A stretch of DNA of 64,000 nucleotides from Pseudomonas sp. RIT288 (GTDB lineage: Bacteria; Pseudomonadota; Gammaproteobacteria; Pseudomonadales; Pseudomonadaceae), in the NCBI RefSeq assembly GCF_000631985.1, contig NZ_JFYN01000041.1, positions 248,001 through 312,000 of the forward strand, written 5' to 3'. The translations under genes and the position numbers were made by a program. How positions within the stretch are numbered: position 1 is the first letter of the stretch; each line of letters starts with the position of its first letter. The notes under the pieces were generated by a model. It ran no database searches, was not told the DNA's origin, and was given only the letters and a program-made list of their open reading frames with translations. Positions 61,137-62,061 of this stretch are shown in pieces.

Positions 61137-61227
61137 GTAGGAGCTGCCGAAGGCTGCGATCTTTTGACTTTGGTTTCTCACCATCAGAAACAAAATCAAA
61201 AGATCGCAGCCTTCGGCAGCTCCTACA
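61137..61227. repeat. REP doublet, family B
   Basis: GTAGGAGCTGCCGAAGGCTG and its inverted copy flank about 30 bases between nagE and the DUF6124 gene. Confidence 0.87.
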
Positions 61228-61248
61228 AAGTATCCAGCCTGGCGGTGG

Positions 61249-61590
61249 TCAGGCTTGTGGATCGACCCTGTCCAGCGCGCGGTTTACCGCCAGTTCGGCG
61301 AGCATGACGATTTGCTGGATCGCCAGTGCGGTGCTGCGTTGCAGGCCGCTGAGTTCGTTGGCGAAGTTGCTGGCCATGGCACTGGCGCAGGCCAACGATT
61401 CGTAGGCGTGGGCTAGCAGGGTTTCGGGGTCGATGCTTGGGTTGACCAGGAACATCGTGCCGGGGTGATGCGCCTGAGCGGGTTGCGGGGTGAAGTAGAA
61501 ATCGACAGCGCGCTTGATGGCTTCGCGGTCTTTCGTCAGGTCTTCAACCCGGATGGCGTCGGCGGGTGGGTCGGGTATCAGTTTGTCCAT
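61249..61590 (-). CDS. DUF6124 (DUF3077-like) protein
   Basis: 113 residues from the ATG at 61590, with AGGAC 8 nt upstream. MDKLIPDPPADAIRVEDLTKDREAIKRAVDFYF is followed by FLVNPSIDPETLLAHAYESLACASAMASNFANELSGLQRSTALAIQQIVMLAELAVNRAL, a helical pattern repeated in many Pseudomonas DUF6124 proteins. Function is unknown. The extension upstream of this ATG (up to 61659) lies in the structured leader and is rejected. The gene is remarkable for its 5' leader. Confidence 0.8.
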   Translation of the reverse strand: MDKLIPDPPADAIRVEDLTKDREAIKRAVDFYFTPQPAQAHHPGTMFLVNPSIDPETLLAHAYESLACASAMASNFANELSGLQRSTALAIQQIVMLAELAVNRALDRVDPQA

Positions 61591-61920
61591 CGAACAAGTC
61601 CTTTTTAAGTGTTGCGGCCACTTGCTCCCGATCTCACTCGGAGAAGAGGTGGCAGCCATGTACGGAGTGAGATTACCGGTAAGGACCCCAAATCCGGCCG
61701 GACCGAAGTCCGCCCGTACATAGCCGCCATAAGGAATTGCTGACAGCGAAAGCTGGCCACAATTATGGGGGCACTTGTCTGGGGATCCAAATCGGGTATC
61801 TCACCTCCCGGTCGCTGAATTGGCAGCGACAGACAAAGCCTAGAGACCGGACGTCCGAGGGACAACCTGAAAACCTTGTGGGAAGGTTCTTCTGATTCCA
61901 CACATTTTTAAACACAAAAC
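61591..61920 (-). promoter_or_regulatory. Structured 5' leader of the DUF6124 gene (candidate riboregulator)
   Basis: On the minus strand the leader contains: a 15-bp stem between 61728-61714 and 61665-61651 with two G-U pairs; inside it a 5-bp CGGAC-UUCG-GUCCG hairpin (61712-61699) and a CCGG/CCGG stem; a 9-bp helix ATCTCACTC/GAGTGAGAT (61673-61665 with 61639-61631) that is pseudoknotted with, or competes with, the 15-bp stem; an upstream hairpin GTCGCTG-6-CAGCGAC (61830-61811); and an AACCTT/AAGGTT hairpin near 61885. The Shine-Dalgarno is at 61602-61598. G-U pairs point to RNA rather than DNA structure. Confidence 0.6.
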
Positions 61921-61928
61921 ATCCCACT

Positions 61929-62019
61929 GTAGGAGCTGCCGAAGGCTGCGATCTTTTGACTTTGGCTTTCCACAATCAAAGGCAAGATCAAAAGATCGCA
62001 GCCTTCGGCAGCTCCTACA
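61929..62019. repeat. REP doublet, family B
   Basis: GTAGGAGCTGCCGAAGGCTG and its inverted copy. It is nearly identical in loop style to the doublet at 61137-61227. Confidence 0.87.
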
Positions 62020-62061
62020 GGTGAGTACTGCATCAGCTAGAGATTGGTCGGCTGTCAGGCC

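Follow-up and report, generated by a model that had tools for sequence, protein, structure and literature searches.

As an RNA of phage immunity, C4 has been known from P1 and P7 since 1990; the positions of its target copies in P1 are part of that established picture. The P1 model followed here draws on the accessible text of two accounts (PMC8198154, PMC12197685) and on that of Weiss 2016; the defining features of the P1/P7 system (RF01695 together with RF03163) are a three-stem fold, the antisense segments a′ and b′, paired target copies a1b1 and a2b2, and a target at the ribosome binding site. The lettering follows the P1 literature as presented in the available part of Weiss 2016, with a′ as the specificity segment and b′ covering the ribosome binding site. 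C4 is placed in Proteobacteria and phages in the accessible portion of Weinberg 2010. The closest chromosomal counterparts in the literature are the Group 1 sRNAs of Acinetobacter baumannii, which the accessible text of Weiss 2016 (PMC5320573) describes as 21 similar C4-like sequences with a variable a′ segment; RNA-seq gave signs of RNase P-like processing, and the same text leaves the targets of these RNAs open. In the parts of two further reports that were available (PMC4603805, PMC12189769), C4 adjoins the RNA element isrK in Burkholderia cenocepacia and Xylella.

The locus studied here lies in a 64,000-nt stretch of Pseudomonas sp. RIT288 DNA, referred to as the window. An Rfam scan of the whole window returned only C4 (RF01695) and c4-a1b1 (RF03163) above cut-off, both on the minus strand, and no described riboswitch family was matched above the Rfam cut-off in the window, although a new riboswitch class could escape such a scan. 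The region in front of the DUF6124 gene is very probably a C4 antisense RNA module of the P1/P7 type, together with its target sites (Table 1). It has the three-stem fold, a′ and b′, both target copies and a target at the ribosome binding site, and the order of its elements is that of the P1 immI or c4-icd-ant operon, with DUF6124 in place of icd and ant; the genes icd and ant do not follow here. The c4-a1b1 block lies 54 nt upstream of C4. As in the Burkholderia cenocepacia and Xylella units, C4 may have isrK as a neighbor: an isrK match below threshold (18.4 bits against a cut-off of 50) lies at 61759-61830 on the minus strand, overlapping a1b1. Those units differ in having, in the accessible text, one or two C4, and DUF6124 is not named there. 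Two long inverted repeats of the type CTGTAGGAGCTGCCGAAGGCTGCGATC, which we take to be REP-like, lie at 61139-61225 and 61926-62020, one on each side of the C4-DUF6124 unit.

Table 1. Positions of the C4 module, its candidate target sites and the adjoining gene within the window.
Feature	Position	Strand	Evidence
C4 antisense RNA (RF01695), whole model 1-87	61645..61734	-	65.6 bits, cut-off 45; fold z -4.8
C4 closing stem P1, 5′ strand (helix A)	61714..61728	-	covariation
C4 closing stem P1, 3′ strand	61651..61665	-	covariation
P2 hairpin CGGAC-UUCG-GUCCG	61699..61712	-	5/5 pairs with changes on both sides
P3 hairpin CCGG...CCGG, b′ in loop	61676..61697	-	Rfam alignment
b′ (GGGUCCUU), complement of the Shine-Dalgarno region (two G-U pairs)	61681..61688	-	sequence; window test on 22 loci
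a′ (AUCUCACUC), C4 specificity segment	61665..61673	-	covariation with a1 and a2
a2 target (GAGUGAGAU), partner of a′ in helix B	61631..61639	-	covariation
b2 target including the Shine-Dalgarno (AAGGACUU)	61596..61603	-	sequence; complementarity test on 22 loci
c4-a1b1 target block (RF03163)	61789..61843	-	47.4 bits, cut-off 46.7
a1 target (GUGAGAU), loop of CGGG/CCCG hairpin	61798..61804	-	covariation
b1 target (UUGGAUCCCC), complements b′ with one bulge (by eye)	61781..61790	-	sequence
GTTTAA box, 5′ edge of unit, 179 nt before C4	61908..61913	-	motif count
DUF6124 gene (PF19619), 113 aa	61249..61590	-	89.1 bits, cut-off 27

The helices on which the original prediction was built can be read directly from the minus strand. 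GGCGGCUAUGUACGG and CCGUACAUGGCUGCC make up a stem of 15 bp, two of them G-U, that encloses the UUCG hairpin, and AUCUCACUC is the exact complement of GAGUGAGAU, giving a perfect 9-bp helix. The distance from this second helix to the likely Shine-Dalgarno, AAGGA at 61603-61599, had been put at about 30 nt and measures 27 nt; the ATG of the DUF6124 gene starts at 61590. The structured leader exceeds chance expectation: the predicted fold of the 90-nt C4 core has -44.7 kcal/mol, whereas its shuffles average -29.5 (z -4.8), and none of 200 shuffles was equally stable. The a1b1 stretch alone folds no better than its shuffles (z -0.30). A scan of 61200-62060 found neither a sigma-70-like promoter nor an intrinsic terminator.

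The same structure had been taken for a riboswitch-like or protein-binding leader, and this part of the prediction gives way. Helix A is the C4 closing stem and helix B is a′ paired with its target a2, and for that reason the element reads as an antisense module and not as a riboswitch. A ligand-driven riboswitch, a protein-binding leader or a cis pseudoknot switch gating DUF6124 would be in keeping with the very stable fold (z -4.8) and with the place of helix B between the core and the Shine-Dalgarno, where a′ and a2 could pair in cis. However, both matches above the Rfam cut-offs are to C4 families; the antisense segments are the variable parts of the RNA, whereas a ligand pocket should be conserved; and a′ also matches a second target upstream, a1, which covaries with it. 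A riboswitch or pseudoknot does not predict this second target. On the C4 match and the double target we rejected the riboswitch or protein-binding leader, and regard a switch of any of these three kinds as highly improbable. The two helices had further been described as either a pseudoknot or mutually exclusive states. They could coexist, because the fold of the C4 core leaves a′ free except for its last one or two bases; a′ and a2 may also pair in cis, as a pseudoknot, before processing.

Support for the individual helices came from a comparison of 64 leaders, aligned with MAFFT without use of structure. They were picked from 96, leaving out the damaged leader L020 and any whose C4 was more than 93% like one already chosen. 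The closing stem is paired in 98.8% of cases, and eight of its 15 pairs changed on both sides. P2 is 97.8% paired in the same alignment, and P3 is paired in 67.2% of cells, its 3′ strand looking shifted in some rows. For helix B (a′:a2), six of the nine pairs changed on both sides. Its double-change cells number 129, compared with 39.7 in shuffled and 4-14 in slid controls, and its covariation score is 0.577, compared with 0.184 for shuffled and at most 0.144 for slid controls. The counts of a′:a2 double-change pairs and of pair types were not above shuffles (308 and 289 of 500), and the U-A pair of helix B at alignment column 247 occurs in only 4/64 leaders, this locus included. For the a1:a′ helix, pairing stands at 95.8% and four pairs carry double changes; its shuffle and slide controls counted the helix jointly with two hairpins. 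Among the 22 C4 copies of the genome itself, double changes occur in 14/22 predicted pairs. Both predicted helices thus covary across related leaders, as expected for the conserved RNA leader of a DUF6124 gene that had been proposed, and base pairing of a′ with a2 and a1 is supported by this covariation. The pattern of change indicates that a1, a′ and a2 are altered together, as one code written in three places. A coding leader was also considered and rejected: the 98-aa frame at 61605-61901 has no Pfam match at E 1, and the covariation is of the RNA type, so translation of the region as protein, which the original prediction had named as a challenge to itself, is not supported.

The P1 model suggests how such a module could work. 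One transcript would carry a1b1, C4, a2b2 and DUF6124 in this order. RNase P would then cut C4 from the transcript at the start of the closing stem; the stem begins here with GG, as it does in P1/P7 and, in the accessible text of Weiss 2016, in the A. baumannii RNAs, and by analogy with these the GG is the expected cleavage point. Once folded as a three-stem RNA, the freed C4 would act in cis or in trans on the same mRNA: a′ would pair with a2 and b′ with the Shine-Dalgarno region, and translation of DUF6124 would be blocked. The a1b1 copy could also take up this C4, and may set the free amount or act as a buffer for it. DUF6124 is thus the predicted target of C4 repression by analogy with P1, and b′ is complementary to the Shine-Dalgarno region of the next gene, as the C4 model calls for at the level of sequence.

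While the elements correspond to those of P1/P7, the genomic setting differs: here C4 is chromosomal and present in 22 copies, no two of which share a b′ loop, with 17 distinct a′ 8-mers among them, and the targets are DUF6124, DUF3077 or other small frames rather than icd/ant. All 22 C4 matches in the 6.27-Mb genome are above cut-off. There are 19 c4-a1b1 matches, each adjoining one C4, and 12 of these exceed their cut-off. The genome likewise holds 22 DUF6124 matches. By coordinates, 17/22 C4 stand directly before a DUF6124 gene; 18/22 DUF6124 genes lie behind a C4, one of them as a tandem second copy, and 4/22 are without C4. Two C4 lead into DUF3077, at L004 and, after a 52-aa frame, at L001, and the C4 at L019, L021 and L022 precede open frames of 98-105 aa with no Pfam family above cut-off. 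At least three of the 17 C4-led DUF6124 copies look broken. The copy at L020 is truncated at its 5′ end, and that at L009 changes frame. At L006 (C12:24287), 14 consecutive C close to the start of DUF6124 leave the ATG out of frame with the domain, which would fit a pseudogene, phase variation or an assembly error.

If each copy carries its own code, every C4 should match its own targets best. We scored ungapped complementarity with G-U allowed, in a′, b′ and target windows that were set after the sequences were known. By the joint a′+b′ score, 21/22 C4 score strictly highest with their own a2+b2, and 20/22 targets with their own C4; by longest run, the figure is 19/22 in both directions. When the letters of a′ and b′ were shuffled, the own target was best in 1.16/22 cases on average, with a maximum of 4 over 50 repeats, and other C4 segments used as a control found their own target best in 2/22. 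The upstream targets discriminate less than the downstream ones: for a1+b1 the own partner is best in 16 and 13 of 22 by score in the same two directions, and in 12 and 10 by longest run. For b′ against the Shine-Dalgarno window at the 22 loci, the cognate run is 6.55 and the non-cognate run 4.15 (p 0.0002). Across the whole genome, a pattern made up of a2 and b2 from this locus is matched twice, once at the locus itself. When 74 named loci from many genomes were pooled, the own target ranked first or tied for first in 39, and 58 had it among the top three. A matrix of RNAduplex free energies was dropped as a proof of orthogonality: cognate and non-cognate means differ (p 1e-4 in each of four comparisons), but the cognate downstream target ranks best for only 6/22 C4, and the claim of insulation therefore rests on ungapped complementarity with its shuffled controls. 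Taken as sequence evidence, the pairing-code data argue strongly for coevolution and moderately for working insulation, and we conclude that a P1-type antisense circuit has become a large, probably mostly insulated chromosomal family that is predicted to control small proteins. In one pair of loci, L082 and L084, the DUF6124 proteins are near-identical (dN 0.015) and the a′ segments differ, as if the leaders had been swapped or recoded; codes can change faster than the DUF6124 protein.

The association of C4 with DUF6124 extends across the genus. C4 was found in 92 of 99 sampled genomes, that of this strain included, with a median of 13 copies and a range from 0 to at least 39 (eight genomes stand at a count of at least 39). 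DUF6124 was found in 78/99, and the two counts correlate (rho 0.886, 99 genomes). None of the 99 has DUF6124 without any C4 match, the match in G037 being weak (E 1.4e-4), and 14 have C4 with DUF6124 not found. In an order-level sample of 145 genomes, C4 was present in 20, namely this genome and 19 of other genera, the latter with at most six copies. Absence of the helices before other DUF6124 genes, which would have told against a leader of this gene family, is not what was observed: in a search with a model built from the 22 C4 of this genome, C4 lies 49-114 nt before the DUF6124 match in 74 of 80 named loci, the best 80 of 498 confirmed stretches. As for the six loci in which C4 was not found, L129 begins at the gene, and an unfiltered search of the other five returned nothing above 16.7 bits. 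DUF3077 shows a similar linkage: in 28 of the 30 loci listed (59 genomes), a same-strand C4 lies upstream, at 46-506 nt from the match.

A short motif, GTTTAA, recurs at the 5′ edge of the unit. It lies 179-204 nt before C4 in 13/22 loci of this genome and 168-224 nt before C4 in 54/73 named loci, and it is absent from four other windows tested at these 22 and 73 loci. In a set of 30 genus loci, those with the highest C4 scores, the box is present in three, compared with 0 or 1 in other windows. The box is perhaps part of the unit's promoter.

Comparison of the chromosomal site gives a view of the history of the unit. Among 22 genus loci compared at the PTS-YqfO-purL site, this one included and two matches from other genera left out, C4 is present only here. 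In six relatives the PTS end and YqfO are both on the locus with no DUF6124 between them, and one of the six, L191, retains a 50-bp leader remnant at 80% identity; the other 15 genus loci have no PTS match in reach and are less informative. The C4-DUF6124 unit thus appears to move or to be lost. One reading of such data is a proliferating selfish or decaying repeat with no current function for the cell, which would account for the empty sites, the remnant, the range of copy number and the broken copies in this genome. It conflicts, however, with purifying selection on the protein and with compensatory change at three places of the RNA, and we consider it improbable. Over 930 DUF6124 pairs with dS of 0.1-2, paralogues included, the median dN/dS is 0.22, and the value between the window's gene and its most similar named relative, L075, is 0.14; these ratios indicate that DUF6124 is under purifying selection.

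The locus is a member of the C4 family, and what sets it apart is the chromosomal, many-copy and individually coded arrangement with DUF6124 and DUF3077. The A. baumannii Group 1 sRNAs, as far as the accessible text of Weiss 2016 describes them, share the many chromosomal copies and the variable a′; they differ in that target and gene are linked here and a′, a1 and a2 covary. The target and gene of a chromosomal C4 can thus be identified by linkage and three-way compensatory change. In the portions of the literature that we could consult, we found no link of C4 with DUF6124 or DUF3077. The set of roughly 20 predicted antisense switches in a single genome, for the most part probably insulated from each other, is a natural resource for studying the evolution of antisense specificity, and DUF6124 and DUF3077 gain a regulatory context and a testable role.

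The DUF6124 protein is modeled as a helical hairpin (mean pLDDT 77.2), and neither PDB nor viral models gave a structural match at E 0.001. Against PADLOC models it matched 0 families at E 0.01 and so was not matched to a known anti-phage defense gene. As to whether DUF6124 and DUF3077 may belong to one superfamily, their alignment gave an hhalign probability of 27%, and two of seven proteins scanned matched the Pfam models of both, DUF3077 below its cut-off. Our literature search returned nothing on DUF6124 and, for DUF3077, in the text available, a mutation in a DUF3077 pseudogene.

Two proposals for function, each compatible with C4 identity, were ranked about equally. In the first, the unit resembles a type I toxin-antitoxin pair: DUF6124 would be harmful and C4 its RNA antitoxin, and copies would persist because loss of C4 frees the toxin. 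The small protein, the predicted antisense control and the many copies with codes of their own are consistent with this. However, RNA and protein are predicted to share one transcript here, unlike in classic type I pairs; a helical hairpin model of 113 aa does not have the look of a membrane peptide; and DUF6124 has no PADLOC match and stands without C4 in the four copies noted above. A precedent for a harmful product exists in P1, where the C4-controlled operon holds icd, a cell-division inhibitor according to the accessible text of PMC8198154. On balance we judge a harmful, silenced effector to be rather unlikely as an account of the unit.

The second proposal is a phage-facing module, in which chromosomal C4 would silence incoming phages of the same code or DUF6124 would act on phage development. 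The origin of C4 in phage immunity favors it, as do the loci L053, L054, L057 and L060, where inspection by eye, and for L053 a scan of the protein, showed chromosomal C4 directly before a Bro-N antirepressor-like gene; this arrangement is the one nearest to ant in phage P1. In viral contigs, too, a covariance model placed C4 ahead of the match at 41 of 48 DUF6124 loci, at a distance of 47-604 nt. Because of these 41 loci, the 0 matches of the C4 core pattern in viral contigs carry little weight. Many viral contigs end near the DUF6124 gene, and these may be chromosome flanks of prophages. PADLOC matches lie near C4-DUF6124 in six of eight viral-contig loci (L216, L253, L207, L217, L222 and L206), five of them strong (Dsr1, PifA, PDC-S31, PDC-S51 and an HNH effector) and one weak (MBL), but the neighbor genes were selected by eye, with no control set, and L206 and L253 sit on the same contig; for the neighbor genes so chosen at L211 and L220, a PADLOC match was not found. 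Defense genes beside C4-DUF6124 in viral contigs are thus an impression. The window's DUF6124, moreover, occurs in only 1 of 50,697 phage records and in 0 of 72,556 plasmids, and a phage-facing role is likewise somewhat unlikely in our estimate.

A broader picture, which we put forward tentatively as a possibility, is one of multi-channel RNA control. Tens of C4-DUF6124 and C4-DUF3077 units per genome, each with its own a′/b′ code written three times (in a1b1, C4 and a2b2) and insulated from the others, would spread by dispersal and with prophages, and effectors of the DUF6124 type would stay silent until C4 is titrated by a transcript that matches it, such as one made by an incoming phage.

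Some viral-contig loci have a more complex organization. In 11/48 of them (L207, L211, L215, L216, L217, L218, L219, L220, L222, L241 and L242), the main C4 is preceded by a second, in most cases weaker one whose start lies 511-543 nt ahead of it, and in L207, L211, L215, L216 and L217 two DUF6124-like genes follow the C4 pair (by eye). A gene at L207 encodes a minor tail protein (91.9 bits), and in several viral contigs among the loci listed, a similar tail gene was seen by eye within about 2 kb downstream.
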